DNA of 20,118 bases from Euperipatoides rowelli (Eukaryota > Onychophora > Udeonychophora > Euonychophora > Peripatopsidae), in NCBI GenBank assembly GCA_003024985.2, contig PXIH01S0014151.1, one strand, 5' to 3'. This document shows, one piece after another, positions 210-20,118 of the stretch. The notes beneath the pieces are model-generated. The model had not been told where the DNA came from. It worked only from the letters and a program-made list of their open reading frames with translations, and searched no databases. Every line of letters begins with the position of its first letter. Within the stretch, counting starts at the first letter, position 1. The translations under genes were made by a program, and so were the position numbers.

Positions 210-240
210 GGTTAGGGTTAGGGTTTGGGTTAGGGTTAGG
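210..240 (+). repeat. Telomeric TTAGGG tract 1
   Basis: About five TTAGGG units on the plus strand, one of them altered to TTTGGG. The tract joins the left flank to the antisense 3' end of element A. The last telomeric base and the first element base are in the same phase as at the two other joints: GGGTTAGG followed by [A/T]GTAG[A/C]TCATCC. The altered unit suggests an older tract than tract 2, whose units are perfect. Confidence 0.95.
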
Positions 241-268
241 AGTAGATCATCCTGCCTCTTCATCCGGG

Positions 269-300
269 ATACTCCCACCTTGGTAGAGGGGTGAGAGTAT
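269..300 (-). other. 3'-terminal hairpin of element A RNA
   Basis: The arms ATACTC and GAGTAT, extended by CACC with GGGTG, close on the loop TTGGTAGAG (plus-strand view). In B the arms are ATACTTC and GAAGTAT, so a C-G pair has become T-A with pairing kept. In C (about 19977-20018) CCACC still pairs with GGGTGG around a nearly identical loop. Position, about 30 nt from the element end, suggests recognition by the reverse transcriptase, as for other LINE 3' ends; that role is inferred. Confidence 0.7.
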
Positions 301-337
301 TGGGCCCCGAGAATCAGAGTGCAAGGAATCAAAATTT

Positions 338-343
338 TTTATT
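338..343 (-). promoter_or_regulatory. AATAAA word, element A 3' end
   Basis: AATAAA on the transcript strand, 97 nt before the element 3' end. The same word is at the same distance in B and C. Cleavage 10-30 nt downstream would remove the terminal hairpin and the telomeric repeats, so it may not act as the poly(A) signal of the RNA that is copied. No poly(A) tail is seen at any element end. Confidence 0.45.
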
Positions 344-373
344 GATAGTCAAAGAAACAGTGAGAGATGAAGG

Positions 374-399
374 GTTCTGCAAATAGATATTTGCAGAGC
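374..399 (-). other. Conserved second hairpin, element A 3' end
   Basis: Arms GTTCTGCA and TGCAGAGC, lengthened by AATA/TATT pairing nearer the loop. The matching sites in B and C have different arm sequences that still pair, which is direct evidence for a selected RNA stem. Confidence 0.7.
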
Positions 400-495
400 G
401 AAACAAGACATATGATAGTTCTATTGTGTCAGAGTGCACAGTGCCCGCTTAGTTCTTCCGAGATTATGGAACAGTGAGGAGAAACCAAACACGGG

Positions 496-613
496 GTAGG
501 CCAACCCTAAGCCTGGTCCTGAATGGGGCCCCACAGCGCCACCCAGTAAGGATAGATGCCGTGTAGCACATCCTAAGCCACTGCATCCACTACAGGCTAG
601 GGCCACTAAGGAT
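496..613 (-). other. Three-way-junction RNA motif, copy a
   Basis: First of three copies of a 114-118-nt motif. Plus-strand view: an outer stem GCCTG (511-515) with CAGGC (593-597); an inner hairpin CTG..TGG (519-526) with CCA..CAG (539-546) around the 12-nt loop GGCCCCACAGCG; a second inner stem AGGAT (549-553) with ATCCT (570-574). The flanks GTAGGCCAACCC and GGGCCACTAAGGAT match the other copies. It has no counterpart at this place in B, where about 280 bp are absent, so it is an extra, more decayed copy. Confidence 0.6.
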
Positions 614-844
614 TCACCTTTAGGAAATAGACTTTCCCTTTATCAGGCCCCCATCACTTATTCCACCATCAAACAGGTCACTGCATAGGCATATGCCCCC
701 GACACATTTTCTTTTAATCATGATAATATGGATGTACTTCTTGTAATTCTGAAATAAAAGAAAAATAAAACATTAGATTCCCTAATAATAAAAAGTAATA
801 AGATATATGTTTGTGTCAATGAAATTCGAAAGGAACCCCAATCA

Positions 845-866
845 ATGGTCGGCTACCCCCGACCAT
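845..866 (-). other. CTACCC-loop hairpin, element A
   Basis: A perfect 8-bp stem, ATGGTCGG with CCGACCAT, around the loop CTACCC (plus view; GGGTAG on the transcript). The B counterpart at 10118-10137 keeps loop and stem but swaps a G-C pair for T-A. On the transcript the loop GGGTAG resembles a telomeric G-strand word, which may be chance. Confidence 0.65.
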
Positions 867-1346
867 GGGTTGGGGAGGGGGAAAGGTGGGATACAAGTTC
901 CTCTGCAGTTGGGTAAATTAATACCTTTCTGCAGGAAAGGGAAAAGGTGAGTCCCGGAGAATTTGCTAAAGAGCAAGCCAAAGAATCACATCCCTTTCAA
1001 AGGAACAGGAGGTAAGGTATTCTCAGTGCAAGACTTGTAACTTAATACCAAGCCGAGGAAGACACTATTCAATATCCAAGGGCGGGGATTTAACCCTCAT
1101 TAAGGTAGACCACCCAAATATATTGATGAGAGGGGAAGGAGGAAGGGAGTGTGAAGTGATTGGAACAATGGTATAAGGATTAATGAGGTGATATGTACAC
1201 ATTAGAAAAATCAAAATCCTAACAGTATACAAACAGAGACATAACATCAGTGACAACACAGTGAGACATGAATAACAAATATATCGAAAAGAAGGGTCGA
1301 TGCAAGAACCACCACAAGTGGTAAGGGGGACCACAAAAGGTGCGAT

Positions 1347-1463
1347 GTAGGACAACCCAGACACCAGTACTTTGTGGGGCCCCGCAGCGCCACAAAGCTA
1401 AAGAGTGCAATTACGCAAATCCTCAGCGATACACTCTTTACTGGTTAGGGCACACTGAGGATA
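1347..1463 (-). other. Three-way-junction RNA motif, copy b
   Basis: The clearest copy. Plus-strand view: outer stem CCAGT (1364-1368) with ACTGG (1440-1444); hairpin 1 CTTTGTGG (1370-1377) with CCACAAAG (1390-1397), loop GGCCCCGCAGCG; hairpin 2 TAAAGAGTG (1399-1407) with CACTCTTTA (1432-1440). All three stems are perfect. Loop 1 and the flanks are conserved between copies while stem sequences differ. No match to hammerhead core sequences is seen. The function is unknown. Confidence 0.75.
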
Positions 1464-1738
1464 ACCTTTAGTAATTAAACATTTTACCATCTGTGGCCCC
1501 CCCCCCCCACCAATGCGATGAGTTCCTACTATAGGAAAAAGAGGATTAAATAATGGTGTTAATCATAAGAAAAAGTGATAACAGAATCACAGATAAGAGT
1601 GTCGAACAATCTAATGAAGACTATGAATTACATATTACAATTAAGTCTTATCTCAGGTTGTGCAGAGTGATGAATTATTCTTCGCCCCACCAGATTCTCA
1701 TTGATTAATGAAAATCAAATGTACCACATCAATTCCCA

Positions 1739-1759
1739 TCACCGCGGTGACCAGTACAT
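1739..1759 (-). other. Hairpin plus GACCAGTACAT block, element A
   Basis: The palindrome TCACCGCGGTGA follows TCAATTCC and precedes GACCAGTACAT, then GTCCCCGCCGGGATAAGG and AAACACTATTCGTA. In B (10704-10775) the same flanks surround a different stem, TCCAGA-CGA-TCTGGA. A related GGGAAACACTGTTACTAG occurs again near 2097 in A, so the block is repeated irregularly along the 3' UTR. Confidence 0.5.
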
Positions 1760-2768
1760 AGGAGTCCCCGCCGGGATAAGGAAACACTATTCGTAGTCAT
1801 TATCTGAGATAAGCTATGTGTGATTTGGTTATTGTATCCGAATCAGGTTCACCATATGTTATTAAACCACCCTGAATCACCACACAAGATTGTCTCTCAC
1901 ACCTCCTTTGGCATCATAACAATCAGTAGCTGTGTGTCAATGCAATTGCAATTGTCACATCTCAACTTAACATCACAACAGACTCTTTAAACCAAGCGGG
2001 ATCCACCAGCACAATAAATACACATCAGGGAGAGAAAAAGCCATCACACAACTCAAATAACCTCCTAACCCAGGTGTCCCACCGAAACAAGCGGGAGGGA
2101 AACACTGTTACTAGCATTGTCATAAAGATCCAACGCCAAGGCAGGTTATGTCAAACCTCCCCTGAGAGATCGCAGAATTGTCATATCGAGAACCCCGGGG
2201 CAGGCCATTGGTAGTTTATAGACATACCTACCCCAATGTGCACGACAGAGCAAATCCCATCACATAGTTACTGGGAGTGAGGGATATTATTTTAATCTCC
2301 AGGGCGTCCTTCAATTCCTCAAGTGGGTATTTCTTCCCATCAATGTGTACCCATTAAGCACTCAAATCAGGTGGTCATACTAATATTTCTATTGAAATAT
2401 ATTTCCTTGTTAATAAGATTGACAACCAGAAGCTGCAACACCGCCACTTAGTTGATTACCCAATCATAGCAGAGAGGCCACCCAGTAGTGACCCAAAATA
2501 TCCTTTCAAGGCATTAGGCAACACCAACAGATACATTTATTCAAAATCACTAATTAAAAATCAAATATCTATTTAATTCTCTAAAAGTGAGGTCACAAGT
2601 TGTATTGAATTTAATTAATTTATGATGTAATATATATGACAAGAGAGAACAGTGAATGATGAACAAGTGTAAAATGAAGTAAGAAAAAAGAAAAGAAAAA
2701 GAAAAAAAAAAAAGTAAAGAGAGAAGAGAGAGAAAAAAAAAAGTCCAGTCAAGGTTAGGCCCTGTGAA

Positions 2769-5510
2769 TCATGGTGGTTTAGCATTTTCCTTGTAATGGT
2801 GACATATAGCTTCAATATAGTATCTGAATATAGCTCTAAACCAGATATTGGGTTTTTTAAGTTTGTTCAATTTCTCATTTGCGGCAGCATTAAAAATTCT
2901 ATAACATGTATAGATATAGAGAAAGGAAAGTNCTCTCTTAATCCAAGTTTTTTTCTTCTTGAGGATCTGTTGGAGCAGGTCCTCATTTGAAGGTTTTATA
3001 ATTACAATGTTATTCTCAATAATGCTTCTTTCTTTATTAATTATCTCTGTAAAGTGACAGTCCTTAAAAATATGAAGATTGTCAGCATCTGGACTGTCAC
3101 ATAGGGGACAAAGGGGTGTATCAGAAATTTTCATTTTAAAGTTCCTGTTTGGCGATGACAACCTGTTGTGCATCGCCCTCCAGGTCGTGTCAGACCAAAA
3201 TCCGGGGATAGCCGCATTCCAAATCTGGTTCCATCTGAGTGATATTGGTCCAATTTTATGTGGTTTGATTCTCAATTTACCACCAATCTTAATTAATGTA
3301 ATATTTTTGTAAATCAGGTGAGGGGAGTAGTTAATCAGAGGTTTTTGTCCTTCAAATTTAGACAATGGGGCATTAGCTACTTCCAGAGGTACACATTTAT
3401 TGATGTAGACAGTTATGACCTTTTCAGCAGAGTTGATTTCTAGAAGAGAGTATCTTGACCCTAACCAGTCAGATATCTGTGAGGCTACTTCGCCGCTTCC
3501 TTTTAGGGCACAGAGTGATGTAGTCATTTCTCTGACAGTGTAATCAGTATTACTAGTGTTCCAGTTTGGGAACTTGATTCCTTCATTAACTAATACTCTG
3601 TTATTGTATGCCGGTTGAGCCAAAAATGAAGAAAGATCATGGACAATGGGACAAACGCTACTAATATCCATAGCACTCCACATCTCTTTAAACTCAGGGG
3701 GAAACATCCCCGAGGGAAAGCTACTGGCATTGCAAAAGAAATAATCAGTTGCAAGTGACCCGGATCCACACTCCCCCATCAACGCACGAGTGACCATCAC
3801 CTCCAAATTATTCTTCTCTGAATTTATTAGCCGGCGCACTCTACTCAATCTGCATGTGATCAGGCGAGTGTGTGGATCAGGGAAATCAAGTCCACCCTCA
3901 ATCTTTGGTAGAGTTAATACTTTCCTTGCGATCCATTTCCTTCTGCGGCTCTTCCAGAATGTCTCAATCAGGATTTGATTTATCACTCGTATCTCAGTTG
4001 CATTCGGCGCTATTATGTGTAATAAAAATGAAAGCTGGGACATTAGGTATGTTTTGATCAGATATACTCTGACAAGAAATGATGCATTCCTGAGAATTGG
4101 CCATAGTTTATTGGCGGTGGTTTTCATTTTCTCAATTAGGTTTTTATAGTTGAGTCTATCAGATTGGTGGTTGCCGAAGATAATTCCCAGGGTTTTAACG
4201 CTATTGCAGTTGTTTAAGTTGTTAGGATTAAGAGTTTTTATACATTCACTGTCACAGTGATTGGACAAGTAGATTTGTGTTTTATCCTCATTCAGAGCTG
4301 CACCGGATGATTTTCCAAATTCTTTGAAAATTTTATATGCCACCTTTAGTCCTTCCGGGGATGACAAGAACAAAGTAATGTCATCCGCGTACACCGAGAG
4401 GGGAAAGTGGTCAGGGCCAATTTTAAATGAGTAATTAAGTAGGGAGGACTTAAGTTCAATAATTAAAGGTTCAATGAAAATGGAATATAAAACGCCGGAG
4501 CTTTGATCTCCCTGCCGGACGCCTCTCCCAATGTTGATTTTAGGGGTTAATTCATTGTTAACTAATAGGTGTGTACATGAATTTTTATAAAGTAAGCTGA
4601 TTATCTTCCGGGCATGGGAGTTGAGACCAAGCGAAAGGAGCAGTTTATCAATAAATAAGTGTGAAACCGCATCAAAAGCCTTTGCTTGGTCCAGTGATGT
4701 AATGACAAGTTGTTTTCTCTTTTTGTTGGAAAACCAAACTATGTCTCTGGTTGCGGTAATATTCTGCAGCATACACCTTCCTCTTATTGAATAAGCCTGT
4801 TCTGGGGCAACTATTTGTTCTGCAATTTCATTTAGACGGTTGGACATGATTCTGGAAAATATTTTATAATCAAGATTTTGTAAAGTTATAGGGCGCCATT
4901 CTGAGAGTTTATTTAGATCCCCTTTTTTGGGTATGAAAACTGTGTATGCAGTATAACATGATGGAGGAAGTGTACCTGTAGAGAATATTTCTACCATAAG
5001 TAGGTGTATAAATTTAACTAGTTGGGGTCTGAACTGTTTGAAAAATTGGGAGGTAAGCCCATCAATTCCAGGGGCCTTACCATTTTTAAAATTTTTAATT
5101 ATATGATCAATTTCCTGAATTGATGGAGGAGTAGTAATATTTGTATTCGAGTTATTATCAGGTTTTGGAAGTTTATGAAACCATTTGTCATCGATCGGAT
5201 CCATAGGAAGAAATGGTTTTGATTGGTCAGTAACACAATCATAAATAGCCGTTCTTATGTCCTTACTGTTGTTATAGGTAATTCCATTAATCTCAATCTG
5301 TTCAAAATTAGTTTTAGTTTTTCTGTTCATTAGTAAGCGAGATTTGTTCCAAAACTTATTATCTATTCTATTAATGCCGTGTCCAATTTCAATGCTACTA
5401 TTTCTAACATTGACAGGAATCCATTTATTGTTGTCGGTTTGTTCAAGAATGTCCTCGGCTATGTTATTTGAGTTTTCATTAAAGTTATTAGTCATGTCAG
5501 TCTTAATCAT
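2769..5510 (-). CDS. Element A ORF2, reverse transcriptase part (ORF2b)
   Basis: The 913-residue reverse transcriptase half of the LINE ORF2 polyprotein, expected to copy the element RNA onto a DNA 3' end in the nucleus. Visible motifs: GKAPGIDGL (144-152), fingers IPKKG with SEWRPITL (193-210), motif A LDQAKAFD (273-280), motif B GVRQGDQSSG (330-339), catalytic YADD (374-377), motif D near 405, motif E LGIIFG (441-446). A C-terminal CX2CX8HX4C knuckle spans 801-818. All catalytic aspartates are present. The first ATG overlaps the endonuclease stop as ATGA; translation may begin there by reinitiation, or the two halves may be one protein in a copy with one more A. An N at 2932 makes residue 860 unknown. 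With the endonuclease the sum is 1215 residues, close to 1221 for element B. Confidence 0.93.
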   Translation of the reverse strand: MIKTDMTNNFNENSNNIAEDILEQTDNNKWIPVNVRNSSIEIGHGINRIDNKFWNKSRLLMNRKTKTNFEQIEINGITYNNSKDIRTAIYDCVTDQSKPFLPMDPIDDKWFHKLPKPDNNSNTNITTPPSIQEIDHIIKNFKNGKAPGIDGLTSQFFKQFRPQLVKFIHLLMVEIFSTGTLPPSCYTAYTVFIPKKGDLNKLSEWRPITLQNLDYKIFSRIMSNRLNEIAEQIVAPEQAYSIRGRCMLQNITATRDIVWFSNKKRKQLVITSLDQAKAFDAVSHLFIDKLLLSLGLNSHARKIISLLYKNSCTHLLVNNELTPKINIGRGVRQGDQSSGVLYSIFIEPLIIELKSSLLNYSFKIGPDHFPLSVYADDITLFLSSPEGLKVAYKIFKEFGKSSGAALNEDKTQIYLSNHCDSECIKTLNPNNLNNCNSVKTLGIIFGNHQSDRLNYKNLIEKMKTTANKLWPILRNASFLVRVYLIKTYLMSQLSFLLHIIAPNATEIRVINQILIETFWKSRRRKWIARKVLTLPKIEGGLDFPDPHTRLITCRLSRVRRLINSEKNNLEVMVTRALMGECGSGSLATDYFFCNASSFPSGMFPPEFKEMWSAMDISSVCPIVHDLSSFLAQPAYNNRVLVNEGIKFPNWNTSNTDYTVREMTTSLCALKGSGEVASQISDWLGSRYSLLEINSAEKVITVYINKCVPLEVANAPLSKFEGQKPLINYSPHLIYKNITLIKIGGKLRIKPHKIGPISLRWNQIWNAAIPGFWSDTTWRAMHNRLSSPNRNFKMKISDTPLCPLCDSPDADNLHIFKDCHFTEIINKERSIIENNIVIIKPSNEDLLQQILKKKKTWIKRXLSFLYIYTCYRIFNAAANEKLNKLKKPNIWFRAIFRYYIEAICHHYKENAKPP

Positions 5511-6415
5511 GTTTTTTTTTTAGGAGGTCGAACTTTATCTAGGTTTTTTACTATCTTCTTAATTTTAAATATCTCATCAGGCAAAGTCTCTTTAAACCGT
5601 TCCCATCTCCCAAATTTATCTATACATGGTTCGGATAAAAATTCCTGAATAAATTTGCGCAGTCTGTCAATGATTGGTGGAGACTCAAAAATGTCTGAGG
5701 GGCATCTCCAAATTGGACCACGCTTGAGGCAATCTTTCTTGCCAATTTCAATGCTAGCTAAGATCGCAAAGTGATCAGACAGACCACTATTAATTATATT
5801 GATTGACTTACCCATAACTAGTGAGGTGTTATTAGGAACAAATATTTTATCAATCCGGCTCTTACCTTTTAGTAAAGAATATCCAGGAGAGTTACCCCTT
5901 AATTTAGTCCAGAGATCTCCCATATCATGAGATTTAAATATGTCATACAGAGTCATTTGCATCTTTTTTGATGAGTCATTATTTACATCTCCAGCTATTA
6001 TGATATTTTGATTTTTAAATTCATTAAAGAGTTTCTGAAGTCTGTAAATTAGGGCAGTTCTAATTTTGGTTGGCTTTGAGGGTAAATAAATTGAAATAAG
6101 TACAAATTTAATGTCACAAATGAATACCTCCAAGACAAGAATATTGCCACCTCTAGTATTATAGTTATTGATTATTATAGCATCATGGATTAATTTATTC
6201 TTCCGTATAAAGATAGAGTTACCCCATCTTTTATTTTTACCAGTATTGGACATGAAATATTCCCACGTATCACTTTGGATTATAAGTTTAGGCGTTTTTG
6301 TTTCTTGTAGAAAAACAATATCACAATTATTATTTTCTAGGAAAGCCATCAGTTTACACTGTTTGTCTAGTGAACTGATACCAGCAGAATTTAGTGTAAT
6401 GATTTTGAGAGCCAT
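5507..6415 (-). CDS. Element A ORF2, APE-type endonuclease part (ORF2a)
   Basis: A 302-residue N-terminal exonuclease-endonuclease-phosphatase domain, the LINE nickase that exposes a DNA 3' end for priming. The active-site set looks complete: N9 in TLNSAG, E38 in LQETK, WG at 64-65, Y110 in ISIYLPS, D143 and N145 in AGDVNND, D189 in SRIDKIF, D214-H215 in SDHF. The frame ends PKKKT then TGA at a run of ten A (5512-5521), and the reverse transcriptase starts in the -1 frame with a 4-base overlap. In element B the two domains are continuous. The start is the first ATG after ORF1 and aligns with the start of B ORF2 (MALKIITLN versus MDLKIISLN). Confidence 0.92.
   Translation of the reverse strand: MALKIITLNSAGISSLDKQCKLMAFLENNNCDIVFLQETKTPKLIIQSDTWEYFMSNTGKNKRWGNSIFIRKNKLIHDAIIINNYNTRGGNILVLEVFICDIKFVLISIYLPSKPTKIRTALIYRLQKLFNEFKNQNIIIAGDVNNDSSKKMQMTLYDIFKSHDMGDLWTKLRGNSPGYSLLKGKSRIDKIFVPNNTSLVMGKSINIINSGLSDHFAILASIEIGKKDCLKRGPIWRCPSDIFESPPIIDRLRKFIQEFLSEPCIDKFGRWERFKETLPDEIFKIKKIVKNLDKVRPPKKKT
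5512..5521 (-). other. A10 run at the endonuclease/RT frame junction
   Basis: Ten A on the transcript strand, followed by CATGA, where the ATG and TGA overlap. A -1 slip on A AAA AAA would join the two domains. The upstream RT frame is closed by TAA at the start of the run, so the slip would have to take place within it. One missing A in a real fused ORF, or a homopolymer assembly error, explains it equally well. Confidence 0.6.
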
Positions 6416-6559
6416 AATTGAGAGATAATTTCTAGAAGTTTTTTTTCCTCTTTTTTCCTTAAAAGAATTAGTAGAAGTATATCCAATACTATAATTATTT
6501 ATGGACTAATTAAGTTATCAAGACCTTACTATTGATTTTAGATTACAATAAAATATTAA

Positions 6560-6656
6560 TTAGATTTTACCTTTTTTACTACTGAGACTAACTTTAAATT
6601 CATTTGCGGAAGTTGATGCAGAGGAGGAAAGGTCGTCCTCTGAGGGGGGAGGGGGG
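6560..6656 (-). pseudogene. Out-of-frame C-terminal end of element A ORF1
   Basis: From the two runs of six C (6644-6656, plus-strand G) the frame matching the C-terminus of element B ORF1 is +1 to the open frame and ends with TAA at 6560-6562, after SLSSKKGKI. It leaves a gap of about 145 bases to the ORF2 start, similar to the 121-base gap in B. This supports a single indel in a homopolymer. Confidence 0.65.
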
Positions 6657-8840
6657 TCTTTTATGAGAATTTTTACTTATTATTAAGTCCATTTGCTGGT
6701 AATCATATGCTGCATCAATAAATTCATGTATTAGTTTATATTTGCTATTTTGTGAGAAAAACTTTTTATTTTCATTTACAATACGCTTGGCTTTTTCAAC
6801 CTCGACTTCTAGCAACAGAGTAACAGGAAAAGATCCTTTAACCTCTTTAGCAGCAGTTGCGTCATCAAAAATATTACAAATGGCAAAGATTTCACCATCT
6901 TTAGTGACAGAGGTGTTATTCTCATGGTTTTTTTGAGATGACTCAGTCTCATTGATCCATTCATTGCCGTCTGAAGGCAATACATATCCTTCAGGATCAC
7001 GAATGTTAGTTGAAGTTATTTTTTTTTGATTAAGTGACTCTCTTCTTGAAGAATAGCCACCCAAGGTAGACCCGTTAAGAGATGAATCCTTCCCGACTAT
7101 ACTTGGATAGTCCCTAATTTGATCCACAATTAAAGATGAATCAGGAACGTGTTTTGGGGCATTGAGTTCCCAAACAGGAACACCTGGATCCCTAGCAGTC
7201 CCATCACTAAGGCTACCTTTAGCAAGTGTTGTACTATTAGCTCGATTTTCTAAATTCTTAAGCAAAGCACTTTTCCATGGTGCAGGTTGGCCATTGATAT
7301 CTGAGTTTTTACGAGTCTGAGAAACAAAGTTGGAAATTAACTCACTCTTCTTAAGAGACCTGCAATTTTGACGAATGTGGCCTTGCTTCCCACACTCGAA
7401 GCAGCGCGGAAACCCATCAGAAACGCTGATCTTAAATGATTGACCAGCAAAATCAATGGATATTTCATCAGGAAAGTCAACATCCTTATTGACCCGCACC
7501 CAAATCTTACGGCGGTGGGATTTAATATGTTTTAAAGATGCATTGACTCCCGGGGCAAATACAAACCTACAATCATCGGGTGAGCACTTACCAAAGGAGG
7601 TCAAAGCTGCACAAATAGATGCATGAGGTATGAAAGGTGGGACATTGTTAAGTAGTAGAAGAACGGGTTTTTCAGCCAGTCTGTATGCTTTAACCCAAGA
7701 GTTATTAATGCTAAGACCAGTTTGAATAATTTTATTTGCGTCAGATGGAATGCGGACTGTAATCTCAATACGTGTTCGATCGTCCCCCTTAAAATATAAG
7801 ACATTACCATCACCAACAATTTGTCCAGCGGCAGATAGGTAGTCTTGGAAAGTATAACCAAAAGAACGAGGCACCCAAATGGTTGATTGAAGGTATCCCT
7901 CAAGTACAATGGTCTCATCACGCTCCTTTGTTGCATTTGTATTATTATCTGGTAAGTTTGAGGGCTCACCACTAGGTGCTCTAGAAGATGATGTGCTTGG
8001 GACCCCGATATTCAGTTTGTTAAGGGGGTCTATTGATGGTTTATGAGCTTGAACCTCATTGTTAAGGTTCAATGAAGCAGAGGATGAGCATATTGCTAAT
8101 TCTGTATTATCAATAGGAGTCTGAGCGCTATTAATCCACTCGGCAACATTCAATGTATCAATCTTAGAGTTGTCCAGACTTTTGTTTAGGTTATGCTCAG
8201 AAATATTCCTATCAACAAAATGAAGTTTCTTATTAGGAGATTGTTTAACAGAGACCCGACTGGATACACGCTTGGTTATTTTTGTAAGACAAGTAGATAT
8301 TGGAGAAGTATCCTTTAAGAACTCCCTCTTCATGTTTTGAGTGGGAGATACTAACACTGTTTCTTCCTCAGTGTGTGTTACAAATTCACTTTCCCAAGTG
8401 ACATCTCCATCCTCTTCACTAGATTGATTCCTAAAAACTTGATCCAACTGTACTTGCAATTTAAGCTGTTCAAGTGGCAGACAGGCTTTATTCTGCACCA
8501 CTTCAAGAGGGCCTGAATTCCCTCGGTTAGGTATGTCAGAGAAGCATGGCTCGATGGAGTCCTCTGATACATATAAGTCATCATGCAGATTAACCCCTTC
8601 TGCCTGAAGTTCATCTGAAATATAACACTGATGGGTAGATTTCACGATTTCCCCATGTGTAGGAACAAGGGGACATCTGATTTCAGGGCCACCAGTACGG
8701 ATGTCGTGTTTAAAAAGACTCACCATAGATTCTTGTGAAGAATCTACATCAGGGTCCTCAAAGCCCACGTGAATTGAGTGAACCTCCTTATCCTTCACAT
8801 TGGTTGCAGAGGGGCCTATCAGTGGCGAGGCATCTGCCAT
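6600..8840 (-). CDS. Element A ORF1, Gag-like RNA-binding protein
   Basis: A 746-residue ORF1 expected to coat the LINE RNA. The N-terminal 300 residues are low in complexity and partly acidic. Residues about 310-475 form the part conserved with B (EKPVLLLL, PHASICAAL, SHRRKIWVRVN) and may be an RRM-like fold; this is tentative. One CCHC knuckle, CFECGKQGHIRQNC, spans 480-493. The start MAD is shared with B. The last 20 or so residues do not match B, but another frame does (PSEDDLSS-ASTS against PSYDDLSSVTSTNS) and runs to a TAA at 6560-6562. A one-base excess in the C-runs at 6644-6656 is the likely cause, so the true end is probably near 6560. Confidence 0.9.
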   Translation of the reverse strand: MADASPLIGPSATNVKDKEVHSIHVGFEDPDVDSSQESMVSLFKHDIRTGGPEIRCPLVPTHGEIVKSTHQCYISDELQAEGVNLHDDLYVSEDSIEPCFSDIPNRGNSGPLEVVQNKACLPLEQLKLQVQLDQVFRNQSSEEDGDVTWESEFVTHTEEETVLVSPTQNMKREFLKDTSPISTCLTKITKRVSSRVSVKQSPNKKLHFVDRNISEHNLNKSLDNSKIDTLNVAEWINSAQTPIDNTELAICSSSASLNLNNEVQAHKPSIDPLNKLNIGVPSTSSSRAPSGEPSNLPDNNTNATKERDETIVLEGYLQSTIWVPRSFGYTFQDYLSAAGQIVGDGNVLYFKGDDRTRIEITVRIPSDANKIIQTGLSINNSWVKAYRLAEKPVLLLLNNVPPFIPHASICAALTSFGKCSPDDCRFVFAPGVNASLKHIKSHRRKIWVRVNKDVDFPDEISIDFAGQSFKISVSDGFPRCFECGKQGHIRQNCRSLKKSELISNFVSQTRKNSDINGQPAPWKSALLKNLENRANSTTLAKGSLSDGTARDPGVPVWELNAPKHVPDSSLIVDQIRDYPSIVGKDSSLNGSTLGGYSSRRESLNQKKITSTNIRDPEGYVLPSDGNEWINETESSQKNHENNTSVTKDGEIFAICNIFDDATAAKEVKGSFPVTLLLEVEVEKAKRIVNENKKFFSQNSKYKLIHEFIDAAYDYQQMDLIISKNSHKRPPSPLRGRPFLLCINFRK

Positions 8841-9682: not shown

Positions 9683-9740
9683 AAAAAATCACTGAGCAAA
9701 TGTCCAGAAACCAGGAGCACAGGTTTTGACCAACCTTACA

Positions 9741-9759: not shown

Positions 9760-9763
9760 AATC

Positions 9764-9802: not shown

Positions 9803-9830
9803 TGTAGATCATCCTACCTCCTCATTTGGG

Positions 9831-10775: not shown

Positions 10776-10870
10776 TATTTTCCAAAACTGAGAGTTTTAG
10801 GTCCTCAAGTCGCAAAAAAGAAAATAATAAGGCCATGGCAAAGGGAAAGAGGAGCCAGCGCCAACGCGAG

Positions 10871-10984
10871 GTAGGCCAACCCAGACTGGAACTGTATGGG
10901 GCCCCGCTGCGCCACACAGTTAGAGAGAGCAGTGATGCACTTCCACAGCCTACTCTCTCTACCAGCCTGGGCACACTGAGGATA
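10871..10984 (-). other. Three-way-junction RNA motif, copy c
   Basis: Plus-strand view: outer stem CTGG (10886-10889) with CCAG (10962-10965); hairpin 1 AACTGT.TGG (10890-10899) with CCA.ACAGTT (10912-10921), loop GGCCCCGCTGCG; hairpin 2 TAGAGAGAG (10921-10929) with CTCTCTCTA (10953-10961). Flanks GTAGGCCAACCC and GGGCACACTGAGGATA match copy b. In the outer stem, C-G has become T-A and A-T has become G-C relative to copy b. Confidence 0.75.
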
Positions 10985-11995: not shown

Positions 11996-12391
11996 CTAGC
12001 ATTCACTCCAATATAGAGGCAACTGATTACGCTCCATTAACTTGGATTTCAAAGCTCCCAGGAAGTACATAAGCATTGCCCTATACCATAACCTGGGATC
12101 TCGAACTCTTCTTAGATCCTGTTTAGAGGATGTGATGAAGTATCTATATGATGTATAGATGAAAAGAAACAAGGGGATTCTTCTGAGTGAGGGACCCATT
12201 TTGACCATTTTCTCAGCATGAGTACCCTCACATTGTTTGACCTTGTCTTTTAGTAGCTGTTTAAGATTGGATCTTTCAGCTCTCATCATGTTTGTAAATG
12301 AGCAATCTTCAAAAATGTGTAAGTCTGTAGGTGTTACTGCCCCACAAATGATACAATCTGGGGAGTTTGTCCAATGCATGGCAAAATTACG
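11996..12391 (-). pseudogene. C-terminal part of element B ORF2 after the TGA
   Basis: The same frame as the main ORF2 continues for 131 codons after the TGA. It carries the zinc motif CX2CX8HX4C (CIIC, then H and C in HIFEDC) that ends ORF2 in element A, and ends at the TAG at 11996. With this part ORF2 is 1221 residues, as expected from A. The protein made from this copy would lack the zinc motif unless the stop is read through or is an error. Confidence 0.85.
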
Positions 12392-15300
12392 TCAGGGATT
12401 TGCAAGCCGATTGTGGAATGCACGCCAAGTGACATCCGCCCATTTCCCTGGAGTCAAATTATTCCAGATTTGACCCCACTTTACACCCTCACCATCTATC
12501 TTAACTATTGGTGACACACTTGGGGTAACATATAGAATACTCAAGTAGTTGTGATAAAAATCATGTGTTGTCAGTTCTAGTAGGGGTCTGTCATTCCTGA
12601 ATTTAAGGGCTTTGGCCCTTACCAAAATTCTTGGGATTAAATTAAGGTGTAGTTTCAGACTCCCTTCTTTGGTTCCTAAAATTTGCTTAGTAGGATACAT
12701 TGAGGCAAGAAAGTCTGTAATTCTGCTGGAGAATTCATCAGCATCCTTCAATTTACATATGGAGTTCACCACCTCACCTATCGAATAGTCGGTGCATCGA
12801 GCAGACCAGTCGGGAGGTCTAACTCCAAAGTGTGACAAAGTCCGGTTCCAATATGCTGGTTGAGCATACAGTTTGTCTAGCTTCCCAAGTTTGGGGCAAA
12901 TATCCACAATGTCTAAGGTCCTCCAGAGCTCTTTATATTCTGGAGGAAGGTTGCCTTTTGCAAAAGCATTGGCTCTTGCAAGGAATAGCCCTGGACCCAA
13001 TCCTCCGGGAACACATTCCCCAAGTAAAGCTTGCATGACCTGGGATTCTAGAGTAGGAACTTCCGCATGAGCAATGCGCCTGAGTCGGGAAAACCTACAT
13101 GTCGCAATGCGGGAAGCAAGGTCAGGAAAATGTAATCCTCCAACTTTCTTGGGGAGAATCATTGTTTTCCTAGCTATCCATTTACGATGGTTTGGCCCCC
13201 AAAATGCACTCACCAAAACACTGTTTAGTGACTTCACTTCATATGGGGTGGGCACAATAACATGAAACAGGAAAGTCATTTTTGACACTAGTAGGGCTTT
13301 TATAATGTTAATTCGTTGGGAATACGACAGGGTCGAGATGAAAGCACCGATTTTATTAGCAACCGATTTGACATCATTTATCAATTCCCGATAACACATC
13401 CTATCTGCAATGGGCAATCCAAATATGATCCCCAAGGACTTGAAGTGCGAATTAGAAGGCTTCAAATCCTTATATTTTAAGAAGTGATCCTGAGTCATTG
13501 TCCTTGAGGCTGAGAAAATCTGTGATTTTTCCACATTAAGACTCGCCCCTGCAACTTTTCCAAATTGGTTGAAGATCTCAATTGCTTTATCAAAGCCCTC
13601 CGCAGACTTCAAGAAAAGTGAGATGTCGTCTGCATAGACTGAGACCGGGAAGGTTTTCTTCCCAATCTCAAAGGCAACATCAGAGAGCTTATCCTTTAGC
13701 ATTCTGACTAATGGTTCCAGAAAAAATGAATACATAATCCCTGAACAGGGATCACCTTGCTTCACACCACGTCTAACTAAAATAGGACAAGTCAGAGAAC
13801 CGTTGATCACTAGATGTATAGACGAGCCTCTATACATCAGTGCCAACAGTCTCCTTGCATGATTGGAGGCTCCCATGACCTCGAAGATACTATCAAGGAA
13901 ATCATGGGACACCGAATCAAAGGCAGCCCTTTGATCCAGTGATGCCACCAGCAAAGGCTGGTTGAATTTACGGGCAAACCAGACGAGATCTCTGGTAGCC
14001 GTAATATTCCCCAACATGCATCTCCCAGCAATTGAGTATGTTTGTTCCGGTGATATCAGTATTTCAGCAATTCGATTCAGACGGAATGCCAAGACTTTTG
14101 AAAAAATCTTGTAGTCCTGGTTCTGGACACAGATGGGCCTCCAGGAACAGAACTCCTCAGGGTTACCCTTCTTAGGTATGAGAATTGTGAAAGCCTCCCT
14201 GAAGGAGTCTGGGACTTTGGCCTCTCTAAAGACTTCTTCTATAACTCTATATAAGGGGTTAATCAGCTGATCTCTAAATACTTTATAAAATTCATTTGGA
14301 AGCCCATCCAGTCCAGAACACTTACCATTTTTCAGGTTAGAGATTATCTGGTAGACTAGTTGTTTGGGGGGTACCTCAACCAGACTTTCTGATTGTTCCC
14401 TAGACATACATGGGAGTACCTTTAAAAACTCAGACTCCCCCCTACAGCTTTTAAACTCCGCAAGCTGAGCACTGGTAAATTTAATAATAGCCGCTCTAAC
14501 TTCTTCGGGACTTTCATACCATTTTCCATCAATCCTGAGCCTATTAAATTCAGCAGAAGCCTTCTTTTTAAATTTCCACTTGAAGTCCCCCCAAATAGAT
14601 GATTGGTCTTGTAGGAAGCTGTGACCCAGCTTAAAGCTTTCACGCATAATGCAGGCAGGACCACCAGAAGTTGGAACCCGAATGTCACCCATTACAGCAG
14701 CTTCATACTCATTATTCTTTGGGAAACCGCCCGTCCTGACATTACTCTTTTTTCCTGCCTGTGCTCTTCTCTCACATAATAGTTTCATTCTTCTACTCTC
14801 GCTTTCTACTTCATCAACGAACAAAGGAAGTGAAGATTTAAAGTTATCCCAGGACTCAAGAGGGGAGTTTTTATTGGTTTCAAAAAACTCCTTTATATAC
14901 TTAACAATGGCACTAACAGCTATCTGATCACTTAATATTCGAACGGGAAAGCGCCAAATGGGTAATCTATTTACACCCAAAATAATTTTGGGCCTAACCA
15001 CCACTTTGAGAGCACAATGGTCAGAATAGGCATATTTAACCAATGCGATTGTAGCATAGCTCTCACTGAGGAGTTTTGATGACATGAATACCTTATCAAG
15101 TCGTGAGTTACCCCTCAGAAACATTGCTCCTAGGGAATTACCTTTTAAACTTTCCCATATATCACTCATTTGGAAGTTCTCTAGTGAGCCATACATAGTA
15201 CATTCNATTATTGCCGAGGGGTCTCTGTTAAAGTCCCCGGCAAGGATTACATTCCTGCCCCTCAATCTCTCCACAACTGAACGCATTCTAAGGATGACAG

Positions 15301-15661
15301 ACAGCCGAGTCCTCATAGGCTTATTAGGGACATAGATAGAGATTAAAGTCACCCACCCCCCTTTAAATTTTATATCAACTGCTGCCATTGTCCCAGTGTC
15401 CCAATCAATATCCTGAAGGGGTTTGACCTCCGTGACTCCAGATTTTTCTTTTACAAGGATTGCTGAGCCCCACCTGCCATTAGCACCAGGGAGTGACATA
15501 AAAGCTCTCCATTTTGTATTGTTTACAATTAATTTGGCAGTTTTAGTTTCCTGGATACAGGCCATGTCGACCCCCTGCTCATCAAGAAAAGCAAGGAGTC
15601 GACATTGCCTGTCCAAAGAGGAAATTCCAAGAGTATTTAATGAGATGATTTTTAGATCCAT
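12392..15661 (-). CDS. Element B ORF2, endonuclease-reverse transcriptase
   Basis: A 1089-residue fused ORF2 protein. APE endonuclease: N9 in SLNTLG, E38 in IQETK, WG 64-65, Y110 in ISIYVPN, D143 and N145 in AGDFNRD, D189 in SRLDKVF, D214-H215 in SDHC. Reverse transcriptase: IPKKG near 495, SWRPICVQN, motif A LDQRAAFD (575-582), motif B GVKQGDPCSG (632-641), YADD (676-679), motif E LGIIFG near 743. All catalytic residues are present. The frame ends at a TGA where element A has Asn (PNRNFKM against P-stop-RNFAM), so it is a nonsense change, not the family's own stop. An N at 15206 falls in the endonuclease. The start is 121 bases after the ORF1 stop and aligns with that of A. Confidence 0.93.
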   Translation of the reverse strand: MDLKIISLNTLGISSLDRQCRLLAFLDEQGVDMACIQETKTAKLIVNNTKWRAFMSLPGANGRWGSAILVKEKSGVTEVKPLQDIDWDTGTMAAVDIKFKGGWVTLISIYVPNKPMRTRLSVILRMRSVVERLRGRNVILAGDFNRDPSAIXECTMYGSLENFQMSDIWESLKGNSLGAMFLRGNSRLDKVFMSSKLLSESYATIALVKYAYSDHCALKVVVRPKIILGVNRLPIWRFPVRILSDQIAVSAIVKYIKEFFETNKNSPLESWDNFKSSLPLFVDEVESESRRMKLLCERRAQAGKKSNVRTGGFPKNNEYEAAVMGDIRVPTSGGPACIMRESFKLGHSFLQDQSSIWGDFKWKFKKKASAEFNRLRIDGKWYESPEEVRAAIIKFTSAQLAEFKSCRGESEFLKVLPCMSREQSESLVEVPPKQLVYQIISNLKNGKCSGLDGLPNEFYKVFRDQLINPLYRVIEEVFREAKVPDSFREAFTILIPKKGNPEEFCSWRPICVQNQDYKIFSKVLAFRLNRIAEILISPEQTYSIAGRCMLGNITATRDLVWFARKFNQPLLVASLDQRAAFDSVSHDFLDSIFEVMGASNHARRLLALMYRGSSIHLVINGSLTCPILVRRGVKQGDPCSGIMYSFFLEPLVRMLKDKLSDVAFEIGKKTFPVSVYADDISLFLKSAEGFDKAIEIFNQFGKVAGASLNVEKSQIFSASRTMTQDHFLKYKDLKPSNSHFKSLGIIFGLPIADRMCYRELINDVKSVANKIGAFISTLSYSQRINIIKALLVSKMTFLFHVIVPTPYEVKSLNSVLVSAFWGPNHRKWIARKTMILPKKVGGLHFPDLASRIATCRFSRLRRIAHAEVPTLESQVMQALLGECVPGGLGPGLFLARANAFAKGNLPPEYKELWRTLDIVDICPKLGKLDKLYAQPAYWNRTLSHFGVRPPDWSARCTDYSIGEVVNSICKLKDADEFSSRITDFLASMYPTKQILGTKEGSLKLHLNLIPRILVRAKALKFRNDRPLLELTTHDFYHNYLSILYVTPSVSPIVKIDGEGVKWGQIWNNLTPGKWADVTWRAFHNRLANP

Positions 15662-15782
15662 AATTTATTTTAAGATATTAATTAGTTACTTATCAATATT
15701 GTTAATTCTTTAACTCGAATCAATTTATATTATGTATTTAGTAGTTTCCTTATCACTAATCATTCATTGTTGCTTGAGGGAA

Positions 15783-16688
15783 CTACTGAGATTTCCCTCT
15801 TTTTGCCCTTTGTTGATGCTCCCTTGAGTTTGTTGATGTCACTGAAGACAAGTCATCATATGAGGGAGCATCTCTCTTCTTGCTATTATTCACCTCCTCA
15901 ACCACCATTTGCTGGTGTTCAGCTGCTGAGGCTATAAATTCATTAATACCCTTGAATCTCTCATCAGTGGACAAAACTCCTAAATACTCAACGATCACCT
16001 GTTGTGCCATTTTGATGTCAACTGACTGCAGTAATGTTTGGGGGTATTCCCCCTTCTTTTCCAGCGTCATATTGGCCTCGTCTAACATCGATATTATTTG
16101 GAATGCATCAGCACTTAATTCTACATGCTTTTCCTGAGGCTTAGTATCCTGACAATTGCGGGACCGCCTCCGAGGGACCCTCTGTTGAAGGGGAGGGGAG
16201 TATGATCTATGCGTCCTCCGCTTATTAGCAACCACATCATTACTCCCAATGGGTGACCACCCATGCGACGGACCNGCCCGACCATCCTCTAAACCAATAG
16301 GATCTGGCTCCTGGACCCGATCCTGTGACAGCCACAACTGGTAGGAAGACTCATAATTTTTCCTTACCTCATCAGGTACTAGATTGTTATCCTCATGTGG
16401 GCCTGGTGTATTACCCCCCTTTAATTTCCTATTTCTTTCCTCACTGTTGATCTCAGTAGGTGTTTTATTCAAGTTCCTACCTTTATTGATGTTGGCAACA
16501 AGTTTGTCTTTATATGAGATGTAAGCCTCTGCTCCATCTCCTGAGCCTTGTTTGCCACTTTTAGGTCCAGATGCAACTCTTGCATTTACTCTCTCTTTAG
16601 GGGCAAGCCTGCAGTTCCGTTTCATGTGGCCAGTTTTGCCACAGTTGAAACATTTGGTTCCCCCACTTGTGACAGCGATATTCAGGAC
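15783..16688 (-). pseudogene. Element B ORF1, C-terminal part after the frame break
   Basis: In the -1 frame relative to the upstream part. It opens with the CCHC knuckle CFNCGKTGHMKRNC (16652-16611), followed by a basic, low-complexity stretch and a C-terminal segment matching A (INEFIASAAEHQQM against IHEFIDAAYDYQQM), ending DDLSSVTSTNS and a basic tail. An internal ATG inside the knuckle would give 280 residues, but starting there makes no sense for the motif. An N lies at 16275. Confidence 0.85.
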
Positions 16689-18100
16689 TTCCCCTGCAAA
16701 TTGAACCTGATATGTTCAGGTATCTGCTGTTCCCTGTTCATCCTTAACCAGACCCTGCGTCTGTGAGATTTCACATGACTCAGGGCCTTGTCCTCACAGG
16801 GTGCATAGATAAATTCAAAATCATCCGGACCCACCTTCCCATAGGGGGCAAGTGCACGTGCTAAGTTTGCATGAGGAATCACAGCGGGGACCCCATGCAA
16901 TAAGAGAAGTACTGGCTTCTCAGAAAGTCTATATGCCTTCTGCCACTTATCTCCAATCTTGAGGCCTTTCTTAACAATCTGATCAACCACATTCGGATCA
17001 CTCACAGTAATCTCCATACGAGTCCTGTCTTCACCATCAAATGAAATGACCCTCTGGGAGCCGATGACCTCAGCTGTGGCCCGGAGATATTGCTCGAACG
17101 TGACAAACATATCACGTCTTACCCAGAAGGTCGACTGTAAGTAATTTTCATAGTCGAAAGTTTCGACTATGAAAGCATTTGCCTTGGGTAGATAATTGAA
17201 ACAATCATCTTCATCCTTCGAAGACCCGTCAGTAACTATATCTCTTCCAACTATCTTAGAACATCCAGCCCTCTGGAGGGGCTTAGGTCTTAATGGCTGA
17301 TAGCTCGGGGTGGAGTCATCCTCCATTGCCTCACCTAAATTGGGATGATCCCCCTCATTAACCGTCGCAGGAGTCAAACACTTTTCATGCGTCAGGGCTC
17401 TAAGGGAACTCTTCTTAACCCCACTCTGAGCAATTTTGGCCAGAGAAGGGTCATGGAGTACTGGCCCATTACTGAGCACCTTACGAGTTGAAGACTTACC
17501 TTGACCCTTCAACTTAGGACTTCCAAGAGGGCTTTGCAACAGTTTCCTCCTAATGCTACATGAAACCTTCCAGGACCTTTTCAAGATTACTGGGGTGTCT
17601 CCTTTTAAAAAAGCCCTACGTTCCAACCCTGCACCAGGGGTGAGGGGCAGCTTGGGTGGGGATCCATTACAAAGAGCTGGGTTAGATATCTCCTCATCTA
17701 CCCATTCTTCTTCAACAATTACCTCTTCAACCAGGGCCTTTTCGAGCTGTCTGCCAAGATCTTCTAAGTTTTCCCCCTTTTCAGGTTCCACTGTAATTGT
17801 TTTTGTCATTGAACTCTCTTGGAGACCAAGACCTTCAGCCTCCTCTGAGGATTCATGGAACTCATCCTCAGATTCGTTGTTTTCATCTCCATCTCCAGGT
17901 TGGGATTCCCTTAAGCACAATGTACCCGGAACGGCTCCTAAAGCCTCCCCCAGTACAATCGAGGGCTCCAACGCAGATTGCTGAATGAAAGTTTCTTCCT
18001 TGTTCCTAGTATTATCCACAATTTCAGCATAAGGGACTGGGACAGAGATTTCAATAGTCTGACCCCCATCCCTTAATGGGTCAATCGGAATGTCTGCCAT
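16682..18100 (-). CDS. Element B ORF1, N-terminal part
   Basis: 472 residues of the Gag-like ORF1. The start MADIPIDPL matches the MAD start of A. It has an acidic, Glu/Ser-rich N-terminal half (about 75-170) and a conserved domain from about 330 (NYLQSTFWV, RTRMEITV, EKPVLLLLHG, SHRRRVWLRMN) that may be RRM-like. The frame stops at TGA just after NLQGKS, where A continues through ISVSDG into its zinc knuckle. The knuckle is found 10 codons on in the -1 frame. One missing base near 16685 therefore splits a protein of about 770 residues. The next-door leader has 171-bp monomers that may carry its promoter. Confidence 0.9.
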   Translation of the reverse strand: MADIPIDPLRDGGQTIEISVPVPYAEIVDNTRNKEETFIQQSALEPSIVLGEALGAVPGTLCLRESQPGDGDENNESEDEFHESSEEAEGLGLQESSMTKTITVEPEKGENLEDLGRQLEKALVEEVIVEEEWVDEEISNPALCNGSPPKLPLTPGAGLERRAFLKGDTPVILKRSWKVSCSIRRKLLQSPLGSPKLKGQGKSSTRKVLSNGPVLHDPSLAKIAQSGVKKSSLRALTHEKCLTPATVNEGDHPNLGEAMEDDSTPSYQPLRPKPLQRAGCSKIVGRDIVTDGSSKDEDDCFNYLPKANAFIVETFDYENYLQSTFWVRRDMFVTFEQYLRATAEVIGSQRVISFDGEDRTRMEITVSDPNVVDQIVKKGLKIGDKWQKAYRLSEKPVLLLLHGVPAVIPHANLARALAPYGKVGPDDFEFIYAPCEDKALSHVKSHRRRVWLRMNREQQIPEHIRFNLQGKS

Positions 18101-18149
18101 CTTTACCTATAAGGTGACAGATTATAATTTAAGTACTTAATCTACACAC

Positions 18150-19213
18150 ACAATGTTAACCTTGAAAATCCCTGCTACAACAGAAACCGTTGGTGAAAGT
18201 GTATCTTATTATTTAATAATTAGCTTCAGAAGGTACTATTAACATAGAAAGGGAATAGACAAAACCAAGAAAAATCAAAACCTCGAGCAGTTATTAACGA
18301 TTCAAGATTTCCCCATGTTAAATTTTGATAACCTTGAAAAACCTTATAAAATAAAACCTGTTGGTGAAAGTATAATTTTTTAATCGATAAATAGTTTCAG
18401 AAGGTACTATTAATATAGGGAGGAAGTTGACAAAACAAAAAAAACTCAAAAACTAAAACCGTTATTCACAATTTAGGATTTCTCCATGTTAAATTCTACT
18501 AACCTTGAAAAATTTACTAAAACAAAAATCGTTGGTGAAAGTATATTTTTTTATTCGATAAATGGGTTCAGAAGGCAGTGTTAATATAGGGTGGAGGTTA
18601 ACAGAATTAAAATATCTCAAAAACTAAAGCTGTTATTCACGATTTAAGATTTCTCCATGTTAAAATTTGATAGCCTTGAAAAAATTTTTAAAACAAAAAC
18701 CGTTGGTGAAAGTATAATTTTTTATTTGATAAATGGGTTCAGAATGTACCATTAACATAGGGTGGGAGTTAACAAAATTAAAAAATCTCAAAAACTAAAG
18801 CTGTTATTCACGATTTAAGATTTCCCCATGTTAAAATTTGATAGCCTTGAAAAATTTTTTAAAACAAAAACCGTTGGTGAAAGTATAGTTTTTTATTTGA
18901 TAAATGGGTTCAGAATGTACCATTAACATAGGGTGAGAGTTAACAAAATTAAAAAATCTAAAAAACTAGAGCTGTTATTTACAAATTAAGCTTTCTCCAT
19001 GTTAAAGTTTGATAGCCTTGAAAAAATTTTTAAAACAAGAACCGTTGGTGAAAGTATAATTTTTTATTTGATAAATGGGTTCATAGGGTACTATTAATAT
19101 AGGGTGGAAGTTAACAAAACTCAAATAACTCAAAAACTAAAGCTGTTATTCATTATTTAAGATTTCTCCATGTTAAAATTTGTTAACCTTGAAAAATTTC
19201 CTAAAATCAAAAC
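18150..19213 (-). repeat. 171-bp tandem monomers in element B leader
   Basis: The word [C/T]GTTGGTGAAAGT starts at 18188, 18359, 18530, 18701, 18872 and 19043, each exactly 171 bp from the last, with partial copies at both ends. Each monomer has CCATGTTAAA and a TTAA[T/C]ATAGGG-like word. Copies near the 5' end of the array resemble one another more than the one next to ORF1, as expected if copies are added or converted there. A promoter function is inferred from the L1 monomer analogy. Confidence 0.92.
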
Positions 19214-19486
19214 GGAAAATAATTTCAAAAAACTGCTTGTAAATTCAGATTCGGAATTGTTTATTTATATAGGCTAGAACTAAAAATTTAAAAGATTGGA
19301 CAATATTTTCAGTCAGAAAACTGTCACTGAAGATACAAAAATTGCCCCTATGTTAAATCAATATGGTTTTTAAAAACGCTACTAAAAAAGCAAATTTCTG
19401 ACAGAAAATTTCAAATTTTTCCTAAATAATTATAATCAGCATGTAGATCTTGTTCTTAACTTTCCGAAAATATATAGGTTGAAAAC

Positions 19487-19494
19487 CTTACCTC
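19487..19494 (-). promoter_or_regulatory. Possible splice donor in element B leader
   Basis: GAGGTAAG on the transcript strand, about 85 nt from the element 5' end, as in A. A TATATATT block follows at 19468-19476. Confidence 0.35.
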
Positions 19495-19554
19495 AAATTT
19501 TCCCAGAGTTATCCTCAAAAAAGCAGGAGCTGCAGTCCAAGCACACCTTCCAGG

Positions 19555-19572
19555 CTGACTTCTAAGTCAGCA
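19555..19572 (-). other. 5'-terminal hairpin of element B
   Basis: GCTGACTT pairs with AAGTCAGC; the following CAATC marks the element end, as CCAATC does in A. Confidence 0.6.
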
Positions 19573-19580
19573 ATCTTAAA

Positions 19581-19849
19581 TGTTTGGCTCTGAGGGGGTT
19601 GGAACCCCTCACCTCTGTATTACCAGCCTAGTGCTCTAGCAATACGGTATTCTAGTTATTCATAAAAAAAAAAATGTTTGGCTCTGAGGGATTTGGAACC
19701 CCTCACCTCTGTATTACCAGCCTAGTGCTCTAGCAATACGGTATTCTAGTTATTCATAGAAAAAAAAATGTTTGGCTCTGAGGGATTTGGAACCCCTCAC
19801 CTCTGTATTACCAGCCTAGTGCTCTAGCAATACGGTATTCTAGTTATTC
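19581..19849 (-). repeat. Three tandem tRNA-like units (94-bp period)
   Basis: Units start (plus strand) at 19581, 19675 and 19769. On the minus strand each has a D-arm-like GCTAGAGCAC, a loop CTGGTAA that would carry the anticodon GGT (Thr), a T-arm with GGTTCC, and CAGAGCC as a 3' acceptor strand. The 5' acceptor strand GGCTCTG and the 5' D-stem are missing; instead there is a CTAG-AATA-loop-TATT-CTAG hairpin. Two units end in runs of 11 and 9 T, fit for Pol III termination. They are not working tRNA genes; a tRNA-derived repeat or 5'-replaced tRNA pseudogene is likely. Confidence 0.6.
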
Positions 19850-19856
19850 TAAAAAA

Positions 19857-19936
19857 TCTGGTGGAATTTCCGGGGATTGAACCCTAAACAGCTTGGTTAT
19901 GAGATTATAACTAAGCCATTAGGCCACGCTGACTAC
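19857..19936 (-). repeat. Fourth, different tRNA-like unit
   Basis: On the minus strand TGGCCTAATGG fits the Pol III A box and GGGTTCAATCC fits the B box, 31 bases between them. The end reads TTCCACCA. A long stem CTTAGTTAT with ATAACCAAG takes the place of a normal anticodon arm, and acceptor strands do not pair, so a decayed tRNA or a SINE head is more likely than a tRNA gene. Confidence 0.5.
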
Positions 19937-19939
19937 ATT

Positions 19940-19947
19940 GGGTTAGG
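19940..19947 (+). repeat. Minimal telomeric joint 3
   Basis: Only GGGTTAGG remains before AGTAGCTCATCC, but the phase is the same as at joints 1 and 2. Confidence 0.75.
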
Positions 19948-20044
19948 AGTAGCTCATCCTACCTCCTTGTCTGGATATACTACCACCTTGGAAGAGGGGT
20001 GGCAGCACTGGGCACCAGAGTTAGAGTGTAAGGAATCGAATATT

Positions 20045-20050
20045 TTTATT
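20045..20050 (-). promoter_or_regulatory. AATAAA word, element C 3' end
   Basis: 97 nt from the element end, as in A and B. Confidence 0.45.
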
Positions 20051-20082
20051 GACAGTCAAAGGCAAAAGACATAGATCTAAGA

Positions 20083-20108
20083 GTCCCACAGACAGGTTTC
20101 TGCAGGAC
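20083..20108 (-). other. Conserved second hairpin, element C 3' end
   Basis: GTCC/GGAC and CAGA/TCTG pair, separated by a CA/CA internal loop. Most stem bases differ from A and B, yet pairing is kept. Confidence 0.65.
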
Positions 20109-20118
20109 GACAGAAGAC

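Follow-up and report, generated by a model that had tools for sequence, protein, structure and literature searches.

Long interspersed nuclear elements (LINEs) that insert into telomeric repeats are already known from silkworm, lizard and fungus. The elements described here, found in 20,118 nucleotides of the onychophoran Euperipatoides rowelli (the window; positions 1607-21724 of contig C2280), are a further member of this kind. As excerpted from PMC7265360 and PMC10088271, TRAS and SART are R1-clade elements of silkworm and other insects whose insertion is specific to telomeric repeats. The excerpt of PMC7265360 states that the TRAS1 endonuclease nicks the G-rich strand of (TTAGG)n between T and A, and that SART runs opposite to TRAS1. 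A telomere-specific Tx1 LINE of the green anole, Tx1-1_ACar, is mentioned in part of PMC10088271 (citing Kojima and Jurka 2013), as is Zepp of Chlorella, a LINE-like element accumulated in the telomeric region. In Magnaporthe, according to part of PMC7367193, MoTeR1/2 form head-to-tail tandems whose members are spaced by (TTAGGG)n tracts ranging from half a unit to over 20 units; truncated FoTeRs of Fusarium retain telomeric repeats at their other end (excerpt of PMC12857005).

Like TRAS and SART as excerpted, the E. rowelli elements appear to be site-specific in telomeric repeats, and the strand nicked by TRAS1 is the one that we infer to be nicked here. The TRAS1 nick in that text is TT^AGG, whereas ours would lie behind TTAGG; SART1 is described there with a poly(A) tail, and none is seen here. 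The insect elements belong to the R1 clade, whereas the ORF2 (second open reading frame) found here resembles that of L1. Tx1-1_ACar is also telomere-specific and of the L1-like group, of which Tx1 is a part; it can be set beside our elements only by the description in that partial text. Its target is reportedly the vertebrate telomere repeat TTAGGG, and on the excerpted account it is a precedent for the target, which calls for a correction of the remark in an earlier note on this DNA that its author knew of no described L1/Tx1-like array of this kind. Zepp, L1-like too, is alike as a LINE of the telomeric region and unlike in its algal host, as far as the excerpt goes. The MoTeR tandems share the head-to-tail arrangement with TTAGGG tracts, but the available passages report MoTeR and FoTeR from telomeres, whereas our elements are known from contig sites; both are fungal and differ in endonuclease and clade. 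HeT-A, TART and TAHRE elongate Drosophila chromosome ends without telomerase. They share the oriented head-to-tail array with the present elements, which differ from them in having internal target sites and TTAGGG joints, and for which attachment to chromosome ends was not found. Among the literature matches listed, taken from the top of each list, none reports the present element.

Three L1-like LINEs occupy the minus strand of the window: A and B, which are nearly complete, and C, of which the 3' end is present. Our favoured explanation, to which we give a probability of roughly 0.87, is that A, B and C belong to a group of L1-like LINEs that inserts site-specifically at GTTAGG^GTT, the core of TTAGGG repeats. 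At each of the three 3' junctions the plus strand reads TTAGG and then the complement of the element 3' end, in a single phase: TTAGG/A-GTAGATCATCC for A (241), TTAGG/T-GTAGATCATCC for B (9803) and TTAGG/A-GTAGCTCATCC for C (19948). Between the 5' end of A (about 9763) and the 3' end of B, the only DNA is TTAGGG, in 6.5 perfect copies (9764-9802). The earlier note had read both features correctly: three elements in one orientation with their 3' ends fused in phase to the repeat, and 6.5 perfect repeats as the sole DNA between A and B. Across the window, TTAGGGTTAGGG has 10 matches with at most one mismatch against 0.17 expected, a number reached in 0 of 100 shuffles.

The same arrangement recurs in other contigs of the assembly. 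A search with the last 183 bp at the 3' end of A matched at least 30 places (30 candidates, all 30 scored); C943 and the contig of the window were read whole. Six contigs with two to four copies each hold 15 of the 30 matches, and every one of them keeps a single orientation, as the earlier note had proposed to check; no opposite orientation was seen within arrays. TTAGG stands at the junction, in a window of at most 27 bases, in 26 of the 30 copies, compared with 30 of 899 control windows placed 200-1200 bases away, and the reverse word CCTAA occurs in none of the 30 junction windows. C943 carries four elements in succession over 34 kb, of which 1360 bases are N; about two TTAGGG-like units, partly mutated, make up each joint. 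A scan of 35 loci for element proteins gave matches in 12, every one in array orientation.

We read 36 3' junctions, namely the 30 from the search with the A 3' end and those of C, L047, L048, L050, L053 and L088; no poly(A) tail was seen at any of them. Seventeen abut an element in the same orientation. Ten of these joints lie at a recurring 5' end, presumably that of full-length copies (A/B, L011, L013, L016, L022, L029, L032, L033, L034, L088), and seven at a 5'-truncated end (L017, L018, L020, L036, L037, L048, L050). L022, L033 and L034 were called through a motif common to the L013 5' end, without protein matches, and L016, L032, L037 and L048 through similarity of the 5' region, by eye for the last two. 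By eye, as many as about five additional bases, differing from copy to copy, separate the conserved 5' terminus from the repeat.

Exact tracts of (TTAGGG)3 or longer occur at 10 loci (24 overlapping matches). The earlier note had asked whether such tracts stand only at element joints; seven do lie at 3' ends of this group, whereas two are in a host repeat, R, and one is elsewhere. Exact (TTAGGG)4 is present at three loci in the 100.9 Mb of the assembly, all at 3' ends of the group. One of three weaker matches to the 3'-end pattern is a genuine insertion (L053), while the other two (L054, L055) show no similarity to the elements. Eight further two-mismatch matches are probably due to chance; the reversed-pattern control gave 20. 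Sister groups with other 3' ends, TTAGG/AAGAGAG... and TTAGG/AAACTAACC..., have the same TTAGG junction (L048, L050, L038, L047, L088).

Host repeat R provides empty and filled sites for comparison. R is dispersed in host DNA (777 first-look candidates, of which 40 were scored, giving 44 matches). All 33 readable copies, at 30 loci, are uninterrupted at the insertion site; 26 carry GTTAGGGTT and 21 carry GGAGTTAGGGTT. Because one of these 33 empty copies served as the query, the search is biased towards empty sites. Four of the 36 3' junctions lie in R (L015, L019, L031, L053). Two 5'-truncated LINE pieces of 184 bp (L015) and 437 bp (L019) split R between GTTAGG and GTTCAGGG, and one of 56 bp (L053) splits it between GTTAGG and GTTAGGG; at L031 the left side is seen in R. 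L013, a 222-bp copy, lies in a degenerate TTAGGG tract and is flanked by repeats left and right, in the order TTAGG, copy, GTTAGGGTTAGG. None of the four two-sided sites (L015, L019, L053, L013) shows an evident target-site duplication. In R and in the TTAGGG tract alike, insertion is seen at the same point of the telomeric repeat, GTTAGG^GTT, and in one orientation. Since R is split at this position, empty R is uninterrupted and L013 is flanked by repeats, the TTAGG of the 3' junction and the GTT of the 5' junction are the target's own. R copies containing GTTAGGGTT are abundant and dispersed (L052, L049, L056-L085).

In the mechanism that we consider likely, the ORF2 endonuclease would nick the G-rich strand behind TTAGG, and the nicked 3' end would prime reverse transcription of an element RNA recognised through its conserved 3'-terminal structure. 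The 5' end, truncated or full-length, would be joined to the downstream GTTAGGG. Copies in a tract would share their orientation because the target is directional, and later copies would land next to earlier ones because insertion leaves TTAGGG on both sides. Head-to-tail arrays would build up in this way, with leftover target repeats as joints.

The alignment of 3' ends comprises A, B, C and 19 further copies, 22 in all, and has a mean column identity of 84%. Nine of the 30 matches, which were shorter, more divergent or not chosen, were left out of this RNA alignment (L023, L029, L030, L032, L033, L035, L036, L037, L038). The last ~180 nucleotides fold into two hairpins and a long-range stem. 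Compensatory change is found in 13 of 29 pairs, 0 of 500 shuffles reach the observed values, and pairing falls from 96.5% to 40-52% when the partners are slid; since the alignment under test also served to predict the structure, and its rows are related, these controls lean in favour of the structure. The B 3' end taken singly has a folding z-score of -3.25. This covarying RNA element is likely used for template choice. It is common to A and B although their reverse transcriptase (RT) domains are only 39.5% identical over aligned residues; the natural reading would be strong constraint on, or exchange of, a 3' recognition element.

Pfam identifies endonuclease and RT domains (PF03372, PF00078) in A and B, a zf-RVT domain in A and a CCHC knuckle in B ORF1. 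The endonuclease motifs QET, GD-N and SDH and the RT motif YADD, which we take to be the catalytic motifs of the two enzymes, are present in ORF2. In A, ORF1 is accompanied by an ORF2 that is divided between two frames; in B, ORF1 occupies two overlapping frames and a single in-frame stop interrupts ORF2. Both copies are decayed. The best Protein Data Bank (PDB) match of B ORF2 is human L1 ORF2p (7e-61), over residues 4-849 covering endonuclease and RT; R2 matches at 2e-26, and the 21 PDB matches (E up to 0.1) include no R1/TRAS endonuclease. The 43 database matches, sea-cucumber proteins included, are at 20-30% identity, in a comparison that included no named Tx1 reference. From these similarities we class the A/B group as L1-like LINEs, with an ORF2 that carries an N-terminal APE-type endonuclease and RT; the assignment stops at L1-like and leaves the Tx1 subgroup outside it. 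An apparent RT-ORF1 fusion in C110 was dropped, as N sits between its two parts.

Table 1. Features of the window, in window coordinates (position 1 is the first letter).
Feature	Coordinates	Strand	Remark
TTAGGG tract at A 3' end	210..240	+	5.2 copies, one variant
Element A, L1-like LINE	241..9763	-	3' end 241, 5' end near 9763 (from comparison with L029, L011, L016); terminal motif GGCTGA...TCAGCC
A 3'-terminal conserved RNA structure	241..423	-	two hairpins and long-range stem
A ORF2, RT part and zf-RVT	2769..5519	-	YADD
A ORF2, endonuclease part	5507..6505	-	QET, GDVN, SDH; frame differs from RT part
A ORF1	6600..8894	-	CCHC knuckle seen by eye, without Pfam match
(TTAGGG)6.5 joint, A 5' end to B 3' end	9764..9802	+	perfect
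Element B, second L1-like LINE	9803..19577	-	3' end 9803, 5' end near 19577
B 3'-terminal conserved RNA structure	9803..9986	-	folding z-score -3.25
B ORF2, endonuclease and RT	11996..15664	-	one in-frame stop near C-terminal end
B ORF1	15783..18106	-	two overlapping frames; CCHC knuckle (PF00098)
Six 171-bp tandem repeats	18179..19212	.	B 5' untranslated region
B-C interval	19578..19947	.	three 94-bp repeats and one further stretch, all tRNA-like, followed by GGGTTAGG
Element C, 3' end	19948..20118	-	cut off by contig end

At base 1 the window borders a stretch of 1606 N in the contig, and with base 20118 the contig ends. Positions 1-209 form the left flank of A, running up to this N stretch. 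Two 81-bp repeats lie at 8949-9211, in the region of A that corresponds to the repeat-bearing 5' untranslated region of B. Mouse L1 carries promoter monomers, which the 171-bp repeats of B and the 81-bp repeats of A recall. By eye, the 94-bp units of the B-C interval resemble the 3' portion of a tRNA followed by a run of T; ARAGORN finds no tRNA gene in the window, and Rfam has no match in 19400-20118 up to E = 1. A 381-bp query from this interval matched one further place in the assembly, C4218 (11600-12100, L095), where two 94-bp units stand beside sequence also present in L049 (by eye). The assembly also contains, beside animal-like DNA, a bacterial, Borreliaceae-like contig: a single-exon HSP70 candidate in C85 (9638-11416, L094) proved to encode a bacterial DnaK that shares 83% identity with proteins of Borrelia. 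The animal-like side is represented by 24 matches to rhodopsin-type G-protein-coupled receptors (GPCRs); one GPCR had two remote database hits, at 29% and 25% identity, and COX1 had no match in the assembly.

Several points weigh against site-specific insertion as the source of these arrays. One of the two joints in the window, between B and C, consists of about 370 bp of non-TTAGGG repeats, with C preceded only by GGGTTAGG, and needs a later event or template switching. The earlier description of a TTAGGG-joined array thus holds for the A-B joint and for other contigs, and fails at this one. Four of the 30 junction windows have no TTAGG (L010, L023, L024, L030), although two of these copies (L010, L023) adjoin degenerate TTAGTG/TTTGGG-like repeats. 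For 15 of the 36 junctions the flank has no assignment: the left flanks of A and C, L027 (at a contig end), L047 (beside N), L010, L014, L021, L023, L024, L025, L026, L028, L030, L035 and L038. The two-sided sites read number four, and one of them, L053, is also readable with a 9-bp duplication, although R is matched better, by eye, when no duplication is assumed. The target preference suggested for the endonuclease is drawn from junction sequences, and part of the TTAGGG could be RNA-borne.

This last point leads to an alternative in which TTAGGG is a microsatellite-like 3' tail of the element RNA and such tails serve as landing pads that build arrays. Some LINEs do end in short-repeat tails, and here TTAGG is found at 3' ends in otherwise unrelated flanks (L018, behind a truncated element, and L026), in variable repeat number. 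However, the empty R sites already hold TTAGG together with the preceding GAG, so both come from the target, and GTT or GTTAGGG is found behind 5' ends, beyond what a 3' tail supplies. We regard such a tail as very unlikely. Another alternative is that an assembler falsely joined separate copies through TTAGGG. The draft contigs do contain N stretches, TTAGGG is repetitive and the A/B tract is 39 bp long. Yet several joints (L011, L017, L018, L032) comprise only about two to three repeats, of which some are mutated, and would be too short for most assemblers to join falsely; the R insertions, moreover, contain a single TTAGG. An assembly artefact appears extremely improbable.

The earlier note had favoured elongation in the manner of HeT-A/TART, with RNAs ending in CCCUAA priming on TTAGGG at chromosome ends, telomerase acting between rounds, and the array constituting the telomere. 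This agrees with the oriented head-to-tail array, its 3' ends on the side from which the G-strand runs, and with TTAGGG between units and behind truncated ones; true telomeres may be one target class. What separates it from site-specific insertion are the copies internal to R, which are flanked by host DNA left and right and show no TTAGG beyond that of the target. Attachment to chromosome ends was not borne out by these copies, and since TTAGG belongs to the target, neither a chromosome end nor a CCCUAA-tailed RNA is needed. The presence of an L1-type endonuclease with its catalytic motifs also argues against end attachment, as does the far side of B in the window, where its 5' end gives way to other repeats and not to TTAGGG. 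Exact (TTAGGG)3 or (TTAGGG)4 was found at no contig end of the assembly, a result that is silent rather than negative, as chromosome ends may be unassembled; in C127, positions 1-1500 and 13000-14500 are all N, which hides the distal side of its array. Among the features listed in the earlier note as speaking against its model, internal copies do exist, whereas poly(A) tails at the junctions read, evident ordinary duplications at the four two-sided sites and mixed orientations within arrays were not seen. Overall, we consider HeT-A/TART-like elongation very unlikely.

Site-specific insertion at GTTAGG^GTT thus remains our preferred explanation. A wider proposal, which is tentative and in our view rather doubtful, is that these divergent L1-like LINEs form an old group, in an animal other than the anole, that acquired TTAGG^GTT specificity, its members sharing a single 3' RNA recognition structure and perhaps a common machinery. 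Such a group would form self-seeding arrays in telomeric and interstitial TTAGGG and may add to the length of chromosome ends through insertion into true telomeres. A single host repeat, with 33 of its sites empty and three filled, offers a natural experiment on the recognition of TTAGGG by an L1-type endonuclease, and the R sites, together with the covarying 3' RNA element, open target choice by L1-like elements to direct tests. Provided that the clade assignment is correct, the specificity of L1-like elements for telomeric repeats would have arisen separately from that of the R1-type TRAS and SART.

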